Shown here one piece after another: positions 6,050 through 46,828 of a DNA stretch of 49,139 nucleotides (positions are counted from its first letter, which is position 1; the number at the start of each line of letters is the position of its first letter). The notes under the pieces are model-generated. The model was not told where the DNA came from, searched no databases, and saw nothing but the letters and a program-made list of their open reading frames with translations. Made by a program: the position numbers and the translations under genes. This DNA comes from an uncultured Verrucomicrobia subdivision 3 bacterium. Lineage in GTDB: Bacteria > Verrucomicrobiota > Verrucomicrobiia > Limisphaerales > UBA11358. The stretch covers positions 1 through 49,139 of the forward strand of contig CAJAQO010000227.1 of assembly GCA_903944085.1 (NCBI GenBank), written 5' to 3'.

Positions 6050-6259
6050 CTTCAAAGGTTTCGTCGTAACCTTCAAAGAGTTTGGCAAAACCTTCAAAGG
6101 GTTCATTGAAACCTTCAAAGGTTTTATCGTAAACTTCAAAGGTCACGGCGGAACCGGCGGAGGTTTAGGCTCGCTCTTCAAAGGTTTCATCGAAACCGGC
6201 CAAGGTTTCGTCACAACCTTCAAAGGTTGCCGGTCAACCTTCAAAGGAAAGGCGCGGGG
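6050..6259. repeat. tandem array, ten 21-bp units (palindromic core)
   Basis: Units begin at 6050, 6071, 6092, 6113, 6134, 6155, 6176, 6197, 6218 and 6239, exactly 21 bp apart. The best units read CTTCAAAGGTTT followed by about nine variable bases. Across unit junctions this creates AACCTTCAAAGGTT, whose arms AACCTT and AAGGTT are perfect inverted repeats. The units at 6155 and 6197 are degenerate. Because 21 is 3x7, any open frame crossing it encodes heptads; on the plus strand these read FKGF(V/I)xT in a frame open from about 5757 to 6281. I cannot tell whether it is translated. It lies between the divergent starts of the M3 peptidase and the plus-strand operon, which suggests repeated protein-binding sites or a repeat peptide. 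Confidence 0.9.
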
Positions 6260-24116: not shown

Positions 24117-25153
24117 GCGTTCGCAGGAAGGGCGACGTCGGCTGCGGCGAGAATTTTATTCGCCGCCGCGATGTCACGGGCGATGGTCTGGTTGATTTGG
24201 TTTTGCACCGCATTCACGGTGACGCGGATGGCGCTGGCCACGGCGCGTTCGTTGGCGGAAGCGTGGCCTTTGAAAACGAGACCGTTGAAACCGAGCATCG
24301 GCGCGCCGCCGTAAACTTCCGGATCCATCCGCCGGCGAATGGTCTGGAACGCGCCTTTCGCCAGATACGCGCCGAGCTTGCGCTGCGTGCTGTGCATCAG
24401 CTCGCGCTTGAGCATGGAAAACATCGCCACCGCGAGGCTCTCAATGGTTTTCAACACGATGTTGCCGACGAAGCCGTCGCACACGACGACATCCACGTGA
24501 TCCTTGAACAAGTCGTGGCCCTCGACGTTGCCGATGAAATTCAAATCCAGTTTTTTGCAGAGCTTGAAGGCTTCGAGCGTGAGCTCGTTGCCCTTGGAAT
24601 CCTCGGTGCCGATGCTCAGGATGCCGACGCGCGGATTTTTGCGCTTCAAAATTTCGCGGGAATAAACGCTGCCCATCACGGCAAACTGCGCGAGGTGCAG
24701 CGGCTTGCATTCCACGTTCGCGCCGGCGTCGAGCAGGACAAACTCGCTTTCCTGCCGCGGAATCACCGTGGCGATGCAGCCGCGGTCCACGCCGGGAATG
24801 CGACCGACCTTGAACGTTCCCGCCGCGAAAATGCCGCCGGTGTTGCCGAGCGAAATCAACGCGTCCGCCTTGCCTTCGCTGACGAGATCGGCGGCGCGGC
24901 CAATGGAAGAATCTTTTTTCTTGCGGAGCGCAATCGCCGGCTTGTCCACCATTTCCACGACTTCGGAGGCGTGAATGACGCGGACCCGGTGATCGCGAAA
25001 GCCCCGCAACGGCAACGCGGCATGGATTTCCGCCTTGTTGCCGACCAGAAAGATGCCGGTGATTTTTTTGTTTTCCTCCAAGGCGCGCTTCACGCCCGCG
25101 ATGATGACACCGCAGCCGTGGTCGCCGCCCATGACATCCACTGCAATGCGCAT
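24113..25153 (-). CDS. plsX: phosphate acyltransferase PlsX
   Basis: This 346-residue enzyme makes acyl-phosphate from acyl-ACP for phospholipid synthesis. It opens MRIAVDVMGGDHGCGVIIAG, the standard PlsX start, and contains KKDSSIGRAADLVSEGKADA and VVCDGFVGNIVLKTIE, all typical of the family. It lies between rpmF and fabH. The 92 bp between the rpmF stop and this ATG are almost wholly filled by a heptamer-armed palindrome (25157-25245), which may influence expression of plsX relative to rpmF. Confidence 0.97.
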   Translation of the reverse strand: MRIAVDVMGGDHGCGVIIAGVKRALEENKKITGIFLVGNKAEIHAALPLRGFRDHRVRVIHASEVVEMVDKPAIALRKKKDSSIGRAADLVSEGKADALISLGNTGGIFAAGTFKVGRIPGVDRGCIATVIPRQESEFVLLDAGANVECKPLHLAQFAVMGSVYSREILKRKNPRVGILSIGTEDSKGNELTLEAFKLCKKLDLNFIGNVEGHDLFKDHVDVVVCDGFVGNIVLKTIESLAVAMFSMLKRELMHSTQRKLGAYLAKGAFQTIRRRMDPEVYGGAPMLGFNGLVFKGHASANERAVASAIRVTVNAVQNQINQTIARDIAAANKILAAADVALPANA

Positions 25154-25156
25154 GGT

Positions 25157-25245
25157 AGTTTTTAGTTTTTAATTTTTAGTTTTGAGTTGAAGAGCCGGAG
25201 GCCGGTTTGCTTGAACTCAAAATTCAAAACTCAAAAATAAAAACT
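25157..25245. repeat. heptamer-armed palindrome, intergenic copy between rpmF and plsX (89 bp)
   Basis: Five 7-bp units of the form AGTTTTT, ending in AGTTGAA, fill 25157-25191. A 19-nt core containing CCGGAGGCCGG follows. Five inverted units fill 25211-25245. The arms match at about 30 of 36 positions when one flanking base is included. The last unit AGTTGAA is the same heptamer that builds the copies inside recG, which ties this AT-rich copy to them. It fills the gap between rpmF and plsX exactly and should form a long RNA stem. Confidence 0.85.
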
Positions 25246-35695: not shown

Positions 35696-35989
35696 ACGAC
35701 GTCGGACACACAAGTCCAGTCGTCGGCAGGCACGGAAAATGCGTCCGGATGAAAAGTGCAGTCGTCGGCGAGCATTTAAGATAGGTCGGAGACAAAAACG
35801 CAGTCGTAGTTGAGCATGTAAAATACGTCGGAGCTTAAAATACAGTCGTCGGCAGGCGGATTTAATAGGTCGGAGCGTGAAATCCAGTCGTCGGCGGGCA
35901 TATAAACTACGTCGGAGGCACACGGCAACACACCGGAGCCATCAGCGAATACGCCGGAACCGCGAAAACATACGTCGGCAGGGCGGGAC
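35696..35989. repeat. tandem array, fourteen 21-bp half-units in a 42-bp alternation
   Basis: Units fall every 21 bp from 35696 to 35969, with GTCGG (or a close variant such as CCGG) at a fixed place in nearly all of them. Alternate units differ: one type begins CAGTCGTCGGCRGGCAT (35717, 35759, 35801, 35843, 35885), the other reads roughly AATACGTCGGAG (35738, 35780, 35822, 35864, 35906), so the higher-order period is 42 bp. The last three units (35927, 35948, 35969) are more divergent. On the minus strand one frame is open through the array (35675-35923), encoding a very basic 14-residue repeat and ending in ATGA over the regulator's ATG. There are no unique spacers, so it is not CRISPR. Confidence 0.9.
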
Positions 35990-44574: not shown

Positions 44575-46671
44575 CTAAAAACTTTTGGCCACCAACTCGC
44601 GCGCCTGCCGGATCAAAGGCAGATCTTCCGCCAGATTGCCGAAGCGCAGGTTCATCGCGCCGCTCTGCTGCTGGCCGAGCAACTCGCCGGGACCGCGCAG
44701 TTTCAAGTCCGCTTCCGCGATTTTGAAGCCGTCGTTCGTCGCCTCCAGAATTTTCAGCCGCGCCTGCGCGGCCTCGTGTTGCGCGTCGGAAATCAAAATG
44801 CAAAAACTCTCGTGCGCGCCGCGCCCGATGCGCCCGCGCAACTGGTGCAACTGCGCCAACCCGAAATGTTCCGCGTTTTCGATCAGCATCACGCTCGCGT
44901 TGGCGACGTCCACGCCGACCTCGATCAGCGAGGTGGCGACGAGCGCCTGAATTTTGTTCGCGCGAAACTCCGCCATGACCGCTTCTTTTTCCACCGGCTT
45001 GATGCGGCCGTGCAACAAGCCGACCTTAAACGGCGTCAGCGCGCGCTGCACATTTTCAAATTCTTTCGTCACCGCCTTGATGTCCTTGTCCGTGTCCGCG
45101 ACCTCGACGCGCGGATAAACGATGTAAGCCTGCCGCCCGCCGGAAATTTTTTCGCGGATAAACTCAAAAACTTTCGGCAGCTTGTCCGTCATCCGCACGA
45201 AGGTTTTGATCTGGCCGCGCCCGCCGGGCATTTCATCAATCACGGAAACATCGAGGTCGCCGTAAAGCGTCAGGCCGAGCGAGCGTGGAATCGGCGTGGC
45301 CGTCATCACCAGCAAATGCGGATAATTCCCTTTGCGCACCAGCGTCTCGCGCTGCGCCACGCCAAACTTGTGCTGCTCGTCAATGATCACCAAACCAAGC
45401 TTCGGCAAATCAAATCCGCCGGTCAGCAATGCGTGCGTGCCGATGGTCAGGGTTGAAGGTTGAAGGTTGAAGGTTGAAGGTTCTTTGCGCGCGGACACCG
45501 CGGTTTTTTCAACCTTCAACTTGCAACTTTCAACTTGCAACGAAGCCTCCTTGCGACTGCCCGTTTGCAACCGGACTTTAACCTCCAAAGGTTCAAACCA
45601 CTTCACAAAATTACGATAGTGCTGTTCGGCCAGAATTTCCGTCGGCGCCATCAGCGCCACGTTGAAGCCGCTTTCCAACGCCATGAGCGCCGAGCACGCG
45701 GCCACCGCAGTCTTGCCCGATCCGACATCGCCTTGCAGCAATCGCCGCATCGGATGCGCGCCGCTTAAATCCGCGCGAATCTCGCGCAACACATTCGTCT
45801 GCGCGGCCGTAAGCTTAAAGCCGAGCGCCGCCAGAAACGGTTTCATCAAACGATTGTCGCCGCCGCACGGCAAAGCTTTTGACAGCGCCTCAAATTTTTT
45901 CCGGCGCGACTGGATTTGGAATTGCAGCGCCACAAATTCATCCAGCGCCAGCCGCTGCCGCGCGATTTCCACATCCGTCAATTCTTCTGGAAAATGAATC
46001 ATCCGAACCGCGTTTGCCCGCGCGGGCAAAGTTGCCGGTTGAAAGTTGAAAGTTGAAAGTTCCTTGCGCGCGGCGGTCACGGGGTTTTCAACCTGCAACC
46101 TGCAACCTGCAACCTGCAACTCGGTTTCATATTTCTCCAGCGCGCGCCAGACCAGCGTGCGCATCACGCGCGCCGTCAGCCCTTCCGTCAGCGGATGCAC
46201 CGGCACGATGCGGTTGACGTGGATGAATTCATCCTCGCCCGGCTCGACCAGTTCGGTTTCCGGATGGTCAAGGTTGCGCGGCTTCAGCGAATCCGGTTTG
46301 CCGAACACCAAAAACTCGCGGCCGACAGTGAACCAGTCTTCCATCCACGGCTGCGCCTGCCACCAGCGGCAATGCAGCCGCGCCGTGCCGTCGTCAAACA
46401 CGCACTCGAACATCGCGCGCGTGCCTTTTTTGAAACGCTTGATGCCGGCGGCGACAATTTTGCCGCGCACCGTCGCCGGCTCGTTCAACTTCAATTCGCG
46501 AATGGCAAGAAACTTTCTCCGGTCCTCGTAGCGGCGCGGCTTGTGCAGCAGCAAATCCTCAACCGTGAAAATCTCCAATCGCGCCAGCAGTTTCGCGCGC
46601 TCCTCGCCCACGCCCCAGACGGCAGTGACCGGCGCGGCGAGCGGCGAAACTGGTTTTTCCGGCAACGACAT
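44575..46671 (-). CDS. recG: ATP-dependent DNA helicase RecG with two repeat-derived insertions
   Basis: This 698-residue helicase regresses stalled replication forks. It has an N-terminal wedge domain, Walker A GDVGSGKTAV, Walker B IIDEQHKFGV, MTATPIPRSL, the SF2 motif VYPRVEVADTDKD and QLRGRIGRGAHESFCIL. Two stretches are foreign to RecG: about residues 184-214 (LQVAGCRLQVENPVTAARKE and following) and 377-407 (LQVESCKLKVEKTAVSARKE and following). Both are encoded by 92-bp heptamer-armed palindromes. The first lies in the linker before RMIHFPEELTD. The second lies between the TGS motif and IGTHALL, where relatives carry a helix. The frame is intact. The start is the ATG at 46671 (MSLPEKP). 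Confidence 0.95.
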   Translation of the reverse strand: MSLPEKPVSPLAAPVTAVWGVGEERAKLLARLEIFTVEDLLLHKPRRYEDRRKFLAIRELKLNEPATVRGKIVAAGIKRFKKGTRAMFECVFDDGTARLHCRWWQAQPWMEDWFTVGREFLVFGKPDSLKPRNLDHPETELVEPGEDEFIHVNRIVPVHPLTEGLTARVMRTLVWRALEKYETELQVAGCRLQVENPVTAARKELSTFNFQPATLPARANAVRMIHFPEELTDVEIARQRLALDEFVALQFQIQSRRKKFEALSKALPCGGDNRLMKPFLAALGFKLTAAQTNVLREIRADLSGAHPMRRLLQGDVGSGKTAVAACSALMALESGFNVALMAPTEILAEQHYRNFVKWFEPLEVKVRLQTGSRKEASLQVESCKLKVEKTAVSARKEPSTFNLQPSTLTIGTHALLTGGFDLPKLGLVIIDEQHKFGVAQRETLVRKGNYPHLLVMTATPIPRSLGLTLYGDLDVSVIDEMPGGRGQIKTFVRMTDKLPKVFEFIREKISGGRQAYIVYPRVEVADTDKDIKAVTKEFENVQRALTPFKVGLLHGRIKPVEKEAVMAEFRANKIQALVATSLIEVGVDVANASVMLIENAEHFGLAQLHQLRGRIGRGAHESFCILISDAQHEAAQARLKILEATNDGFKIAEADLKLRGPGELLGQQQSGAMNLRFGNLAEDLPLIRQARELVAKSF
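45451..45542. repeat. heptamer-armed palindrome inside recG, copy A (92 bp)
   Basis: Four GGTTGAA units and GGTTCTT fill 45451-45485. A 22-nt core starting TGCGCGCGGACACCGCGG follows at 45486-45507, and five inverted units (TTCAACC, TTCAACT, TGCAACT and similar) fill 45508-45542. The element is translated on the minus strand as part of RecG. Confidence 0.92.
46030..46121. repeat. heptamer-armed palindrome inside recG, copy B (92 bp)
   Basis: Heptamers AGTTGCC, GGTTGAA, AGTTGAA, AGTTGAA and AGTTCCT cover 46030-46064. The 22-nt core at 46065-46086 starts TGCGCGCGGCGGTCACGGGG and shares its first nine bases with copy A. Five inverted units (TTCAACC, TGCAACC three times, TGCAACT) cover 46087-46121. 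The 35+22+35 layout is identical to copy A. Confidence 0.92.
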
Positions 46672-46718
46672 TGCCTGCACGATACAAACGGTGGAATCAA
46701 ATCTCAATCACCGTGATT

Positions 46719-46821
46719 AACCACGAAATACACAAAACACACGAAAGTTTGGAAATGTCGGCGGGACGAGTTCCACGAGTCCCCAACTTCCCATTTCGTG
46801 TGTTTGGTGTATTTCGTGGTT
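46719..46821. repeat. long inverted repeat (AACCACGAAATACAC type)
   Basis: Arms 46719-46746 and 46794-46821 match at 27 of 28 positions as inverted repeats; the inner 47 nt contain a GGGAC/GTCCC hairpin. It fills most of the gap between the recG start (46671) and the protease stop (46829). This AACCACGAAAT family resembles non-autonomous palindromic elements found between genes in several phyla, from memory. Confidence 0.8.
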
Positions 46822-46828
46822 GAAAAAA

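Follow-up and report, generated by a model that had tools for sequence, protein, structure and literature searches.

How did two 92-bp palindromes come to be translated as part of a conserved helicase, and are they peculiar to that gene? The window, which is the whole stretch of DNA that was analysed (49,139 nucleotides from an uncultured Verrucomicrobia subdivision 3 bacterium), carries on its minus strand a recG gene whose frame runs uninterrupted across both palindromes. The genome under study is coded G000; other G numbers denote genomes of relatives and L numbers denote loci. The features below are given with residue numbers counted from the ATG at 46671.

44575-46707, minus strand: recG, 710 residues from a TTG, with a likely start at the ATG at 46671 (open reading frame, Pfam and PDB matches)
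45451-45542, no strand: heptamer palindrome A, at site 2, residues 377-407, between TGS and IGTHAL
45451-45485, plus strand: left arm of A, four GGTTGAA units and one degenerate unit
45486-45507, no strand: core of A, 22 bp
45508-45542, minus strand: right arm of A, five inverted units
46030-46121, no strand: heptamer palindrome B, at site 1, residues 184-214, after LEKYE and before NAVRMIHF
46030-46064, plus strand: left arm of B, GTTGAAA-type units, with the outer and inner units degenerate
46065-46086, no strand: core of B, 22 bp
46087-46121, minus strand: right arm of B, five inverted units
25153-25243, no strand: further heptamer palindrome of another, A/T-rich class, with core aagagccggaggccggtttgctt, the only one in the window besides the recG copies

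On re-reading, the coordinates and the 35+22+35 plan given in the initial annotation proved exact for both copies, each of which consists of five heptamers, a 22-bp core beginning TGCGCGCGG and five inverted heptamers over 92 bp. A and B share 78% identity across 97 bp. Degenerate units stand at the inner end of both left arms (GGTTCTT in A and AGTTCCT in B) and at the outer end of the left arm of B (AGTTGCC). The arms of B pair less well than those of A; RNA folds of the two strands gave z values of -3.5 and -1.5 for B, with the plus strand matched by 14 of 200 shuffles, and -5.1 and -7.4 for A. The ends of A and B, read directly, lack the CGTC tetranucleotide, and an Rfam search over 45000-46600 gave no family match on either palindrome. 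The only match in that stretch, to Ysr141, adjoins A on the plus strand, opposite recG (45544-45780), at 31.9 bits, well short of the family's gathering score of 196. A separate inverted repeat lies directly upstream of recG at about 46718-46822 (aaccacgaaatacac... / ...gtatttcgtggtt), and tandem repeats are present in the window at 6050-6247 (period 21, 9.4 copies) and 35753-35917 (period 42, 3.9 copies).

The proposed translation of both copies within recG, at residues 184-214 and 377-407, was borne out by the open frame and the matching positions. However, the expectation that each would add about 31 residues was too high. Between its anchors, site 1 has 42 residues here compared to 24 in the shortest congeners, and site 2 has 38 compared to 15 in G012 and G032, which amounts to net additions of only 18 and 23 residues. 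These net gains of 54 and 69 nucleotides for 92-nucleotide elements mean that host bases are missing where the palindromes stand, with the frame kept, and this missing sequence is the compensating change predicted from the fact that 92 is not a multiple of three. Judging from its sequence, RecG most likely remains functional; nothing points to an impaired helicase, as the frame is open, all four domains are recognised by Pfam (RecG_wedge, DEAD, Helicase_C and RecG_dom3_C) and these loops hold other inserts in many congeners. Among RecG chains of solved structure, the nearest, PDB 1gm5 and 9wm0, both lack the inserts, and in these two distant proteins the residues are thus not shared.

Aligned with close relatives, the RecG insertions are lineage-specific. 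RecG matches were found in 58 of 59 genomes, some being only fragments or Mfd-like proteins; among 50 RecG loci, site 1 could be excised in 24 and site 2 in 41, and more site 1 states came from other comparisons of relatives. Site 1 is occupied by a short native segment of the EPAIALDLK type (14 of the 31 labelled taxa), by a GTTG palindrome or by other heptamer classes (G006 and G015). Non-heptamer palindromes also stand there, of the GTAGGGCGCG type in G009 and G002, the GGGGCGCG type in G020 and, as a small one, in G005, and the GGAGTTCCGCC type in G010. At site 2, where the unit is GTTGAAR here, relatives have units of GATGGAG, GTGACAT, GCAGATG, GCAGAGG, AAAGTCC, GAGTCGA and other types, while G012 and G032 have 15 residues only. 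In G035 the left arm at site 2 is of the GGTTCAG type and the right arm is still of the GTTG type.

A RecG tree of 49 taxa was built without the two sites, and the site classes, assigned by eye, were mapped on this single-gene tree for 41 taxa at site 2 and 31 at site 1. The minimum for site 2 was 19 changes across 13 states (counting none and empty as states) in the 41 taxa, with G035 labelled as GTTG despite its left arm of another class, compared to a mean of 26.6 and a minimum of 22 for shuffled labels. At site 1, at least 15 changes among 8 states were required in the 31 taxa, and shuffled labels gave a mean of 15.2 and a minimum of 11, so that this site has no more phylogenetic signal than the shuffled labels, from which site 2 alone differs. 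The occupants of the RecG loops thus turn over quickly, and some of the class changes at a site may stem from recG having moved between lineages.

The loop after YWM in LeuRS repeats and confirms the RecG pattern, apparently as one and the same loop with different occupants. LeuRS was matched in 40 of 40 genomes, 30 loci were compared and the loop from YWM to GVDLYVGG was readable in 29. GTTG palindromes fill five of these loops, in G000, G016 and G018 and, from other families, in G041 and G045. By classes assigned by eye, there are also seven other heptamer classes, one octamer array and two GTAG-type palindromes, and the remaining 14 loops are short without repeats, eight reading YWM-ASNGK(A/S)A and six having other short forms. 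The LeuRS element of G000 is 79 nucleotides long with a net gain of 72 nucleotides relative to the ASNGKAA form, or 66 relative to the nine-residue form of G036, which implies that about 7-13 host bases are missing. No target-site duplication was seen at the one LeuRS site compared by eye. The LeuRS of G000 (L010) has a further long stretch at residues of about 107-216 that is absent from the LeuRS matches of relatives and resembles other places in some of the genomes searched.

The two palindromes are not confined to recG. A loose two-arm pattern with GTTGNAN arms gave 42 overlapping matches at 12 places in G000, both recG copies included, whereas the backward-read version gave none. In 392 kb of G000, comprising the window and 20 further stretches, 15 of them from contigs picked for carrying a GTTG copy, we found 48 tandem arrays of period 7 compared to three after triplet shuffling; the same sequence held no array of period 5, 22 of period 6, three of period 8 and one of period 9. 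Chance is excluded by the 48 arrays against three in the shuffle and by the 42 pattern matches against none backward. Most period-7 arrays (40 of 48) lie outside the GTTG class. An inverted partner within 75 bp (score of at least 12 of 16) accompanies 26 of the 48, compared to 10 of 272 for random heptamers, while the other 22 have no detected partner. Of 41 adjacent array pairs, only five combine a single class with direct orientation, and a two-arm finder returned 21 rows in many classes, with two pairs of rows overlapping. Further copies of the plan were thus found in G000 as well as in relatives of the clade. The recG-centred reading of the initial annotation therefore stands as to the reality of the two copies, but not as to any peculiarity of recG, since they are two of many in many heptamer classes. 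Tandem 7-nt units that are dispersed and fall into several classes per genome are a feature that these arrays share with heptanucleotide tandem repeats of the SSR/STRR kind. STRR heptamers are known from cyanobacteria; the background literature includes Mrazek 2007, Costa 2002, Elhai 2008 and Vioque 1997.

We inspected 11 loci of G000 outside the window for gene context. Six lie inside long frames, encoding MnmE, a DinG-like helicase, LeuRS, UbiD, an M16 peptidase and a TPR protein, with one arm in the MnmE and M16 peptidase cases. The other five are at gene starts or junctions, namely ribD/ribE, a pilin-like leader, before nuoI, before nadD and ubiX/ubiA. Domain matches confirmed the families of the long-frame hosts and of ribD/ribE, while DinG-like, pilin-like leader, nuoI, nadD, ubiX and ubiA are names assigned by reading translations. 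Partnerless arrays of CGGAAAG, CATCCGC and TCCGCTT units are present in G000 at L241:13136-13171, L241:13339-13369 and L242:2242-2279, in RibD (twice) and LeuRS.

The excess of period-7 arrays is lineage-specific, with 13 in 140 kb of the congener G001, two in 100 kb of G046 and none in 80 kb each of G057 and G048. Beyond the order, a scan of species genomes with a strict two-unit pattern matched at least 115 stretches, and those listed include Bacteroidetes, Chloroflexi, Verrucomicrobia, Kiritimatiellae, Candidatus Peribacteria, Pirellulales, Cyanobacteria, Desulfotomaculum and Alphaproteobacteria (about nine groups), many of the carrier records being MAGs that could include foreign contigs. 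The 20 carrier genomes that were searched again nevertheless had between 2 and 106 overlapping matches apiece. In 698 kb from 13 genomes chosen as carriers, with some stretches near known copies and three of twelve sets without a period-7 array, we counted 69 arrays of period 7 and 3, 17, 5 and 4 of periods 5, 6, 8 and 9, respectively; palindromic elements numbered 19 of period 7 and seven of period 8. Spread by phages is unsupported, as the strict GTTGMAR pattern (one class, exact matches only) had no match in IMG/VR. GTTGAAA palindromes with similar cores on gctgcgct and tgca occur in L120, L148 and L177 (Bacteroides) and in L191 and L196, and look like a dispersed family. G050, from another family of the order, has at its loci L081 and L107 a dispersed repeat in which GTTGAAA/GTTGAACG ends enclose a conserved middle part of about 40 bp.

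The arms also share a polarity. The left-arm units of 69 palindromes outside the GTTG class were scored for base content; some of these palindromes are orthologous copies and not all are independent, and 42 come from loci chosen because of a GTTG copy. G exceeds C in 53 of the units, C exceeds G in five and the two are equal in 11, so that the strand richer in G mostly points 5' to 3' towards the core, and 57 of the 69 units are purine-rich. Small extra samples gave counts in the same order of 2, 1 and 2 in G001 and 4, 1 and 4 for non-GTTG units in the 698-kb carrier sample. For the GTTG class, the 20 genomes chosen as carriers had 488 overlapping matches compared to 20 backward, which all come from a single genome; a set of 97 genomes from the order had 290, including 50 that belong to the different dispersed repeat in G050, compared to 52 backward in 16 genomes; and Lewinella stretches had 5 compared to 2. 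Because backward matches exist, the polarity is a strong bias rather than a law. It cannot be caused by gene direction, because the polarity of a palindrome is identical on both strands. This orientation is the one expected of two telomere-like ends fused head to head.

Parts of this picture are known from other systems. The comparison that the initial annotation drew to the palindromic elements of Rickettsia is apt, since here too palindromes lie in frame in conserved protein genes. In the passages of the sources, the Rickettsia and Wolbachia elements are about 100 bp long and in frame in conserved proteins, with WPE-like elements in the DNA repair proteins addA, addB and priA; the likeness is one of description, as those passages mention no heptamer arms and give CGTC ends for some RPE (PMC2229807, PMC3733652, PMC4224334). 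The REPs tagged with GTAG or CGTC are likewise intragenic palindromes with repair genes and tRNA synthetases among their targets, including different REPs at about the same recB site in two Xanthomonas, and intragenic GTAG repeats are most numerous in the verrucomicrobium Opitutus terrae; however, these are short, end in GTAG or CGTC, are RAYT-associated in the GTAG case and are described there without 7-nt periodic arms (PMC3733652).

Heptamer arms have precedents as well, as convergent heptamer arrays and heptamer hairpin stems are in print according to the passages of two sources (PMC4692102, PMC4476775). Xanthomonas GGGAATC heptamers form genome-dispersed arrays that face each other at close range, once on each strand, with 70 and 75 such convergent pairs in two genomes (Rehm et al. 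2015, PMC4692102). Unlike the elements here, they form one heptamer class, are 89-93% intergenic with 7-11% overlapping an ORF at least partly, and were picked as G-quadruplex-prone units, and the passages of that source do not describe class replacement at one site (PMC4692102). Such replacement is described for the P6b stem-loop of the Nostoc trnL intron, whose stem is built on one 7-nt motif and whose motif class was repeatedly replaced at the same site, albeit with two classes and in a cyanobacterial intron RNA rather than in proteins (PMC4476775, as far as its passages go). TAACTGA repeats of Beggiatoaceae, Cyanobacteria and Bacteroidetes similarly show one heptamer common to distant groups but are, in the passages of the source, direct and mostly just upstream of start codons in the main genome (PMC4679880). 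Heptameric repeats were said in 2015 to be over-represented in many bacteria, yet without detailed literature focused on them (PMC4692102, in passages), and the literature passages offer no explanation for a unit length of seven. Among the literature matches listed, no paper concerned in-frame heptamer palindromes by title or abstract, which is weak evidence of absence. Going by the passages of these sources, three parts of the picture are separately known: palindromes in frame from RPE, WPE and GTAG REPs, convergent arrays of heptamers from Xanthomonas, and heptamer stems that switch class from the trnL intron of Nostoc. What appears to be new, among the literature matches listed, is the occurrence of multi-class heptamer palindromes in conserved proteins together with their repeated replacement at homologous loops and a polarity bias common to classes and phyla. 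As the homologous RecG and LeuRS loops are alignable sites of palindrome gain, loss and class change, the origin of the elements becomes testable. The comparison suggests that short DNA elements can remodel one loop of a conserved enzyme time and again, and such remodelling would extend beyond the reduced intracellular bacteria in which protein-coding palindromes were first described.

On the basis of these results, A and B belong to a dispersed, multi-class group of convergent heptamer palindromes that are probably tolerated in permissive protein loops. The plan of such an element is a G- or purine-rich 7-nt unit, usually repeated three to six times, a short core and the unit inverted. New copies would arise by copying of whole palindromes, and the 7-nt units would grow and be exchanged within and between arms by slippage and by snap-back templating at the hairpin. 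Within genes, a copy would survive only where an extra loop is tolerated and the net change in length is divisible by three. Both RecG sites and the LeuRS loop after YWM may be permissive loops of this kind, in which different classes would come, go and be replaced. The peptide that a copy encodes is most likely ballast, either neutral or at a slight cost.

Whole-element copying is suggested by L229:8309-8384 and L237:10304-10372, two GAATGAA-type palindromes with nearly identical cores that have a 36-bp shared stretch with three mismatches and arms of one class in unrelated flanks, and hence some copies spread as units. Core pairs scoring at least 10 numbered nine, part of them consisting of arm bases at the core edge, compared to one or two for random segments; as most cores differ, only part of the copies can be put down to whole-element copying. 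Across 48 strict GTTG elements, the likeness of units was 0.68 between arms, 0.72 within arms and 0.49 across elements, and the nearness of the first two values indicates that arms were born or kept together and that units were exchanged. Homogenisation of each arm separately by slippage is unsupported by the same comparison (Wilcoxon p 0.65). Units at mirror positions (0.649) were no more alike than those at non-mirror positions (0.673) in these 48 elements, so that no trace is left of a single fold-back copy, and a preserved copy of this kind was rejected. No enzyme or mobilising gene was identified for the heptamer palindromes. We therefore favour hairpin-based growth with occasional whole-element copying, landing where proteins tolerate it, although this leaves the presence of one heptamer class in many phyla unaccounted for. 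Nor are palindromes of period 8 missing from other phyla, where seven were counted against 19 of period 7.

The bolder alternative is a 7-nt writing step. It is unlikely, but conceivable, that elements arise by telomere-like end healing, in which the 3' end at a break or stalled fork would be extended with G-rich 7-nt units by a templated or slipping polymerase, and two ends joined head to head, or one end snapping back, would give (G-rich)n-core-(C-rich)n. The polarity bias across classes (53 against 5 of 69) and in the GTTG class of the carrier genomes (488 against 20) speaks for this route, and the 22 partnerless arrays and the missing host bases fit end processing. However, whole-element copies exist, no polymerase candidate is at hand and the polarity is not absolute, as the backward matches in the 97 genomes and in Lewinella attest. 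Ku is absent from 35 of 36 genus genomes examined, G000 among them, and the Ku-bearing G057 lacks period-7 arrays in 80 kb, which argues against Ku-dependent end joining as the route. We find it similarly doubtful that a single process across many phyla writes G-rich 7-nt units on DNA 3' ends, with palindromes as its scars. If true, there would be a 7-nt ruler with a variable template, and the permissive RecG and LeuRS loops would be a fossil record of the changing template.

Ordinary replication slippage acting on host seeds, with the inverted partners due to chance, agrees with the differing number of units between arms and between copies. It is nevertheless quite improbable as the source of the elements, as it leaves the period-7 excess, the inverted partners of 26 of the 48 arrays and the polarity bias unexplained and would be expected to yield periods 5, 8 and 9 in equal abundance, which is absent in G000.

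Movement as REP-type mobile palindromes by RAYT (Y1_Tnp) transposases appears very unlikely. Y1_Tnp genes are present in 52 of 59 genomes, with six matches in G000, and in other relatives the LeuRS and RecG loops in question do hold GTAG-type palindromes, but no period-7 array lies in the 1.8-3.3 kb examined at any of the six loci of G000, the draft genome G007 has heptamer palindromes and no Y1_Tnp match, and G048 has 30 such matches and no array in 80 kb. The heptamer elements read have no GTAG tetranucleotide at their ends. Mobilisation by RAYT is thus unsupported, Y1_Tnp being neither near heptamer arrays in G000 nor tracking them across genomes. Finally, it is hardly credible that the extra loops tune the activity of RecG and LeuRS and have been retained for this effect, since, for all the inserts that many congeners have at RecG site 2, peptides of unrelated sequence fill the same loop and insert-free relatives are common (in LeuRS eight of 29 with ASNGK(A/S)A and six other short forms, at RecG site 1 14 of 31, and at site 2 the 15 residues of G012 and G032).
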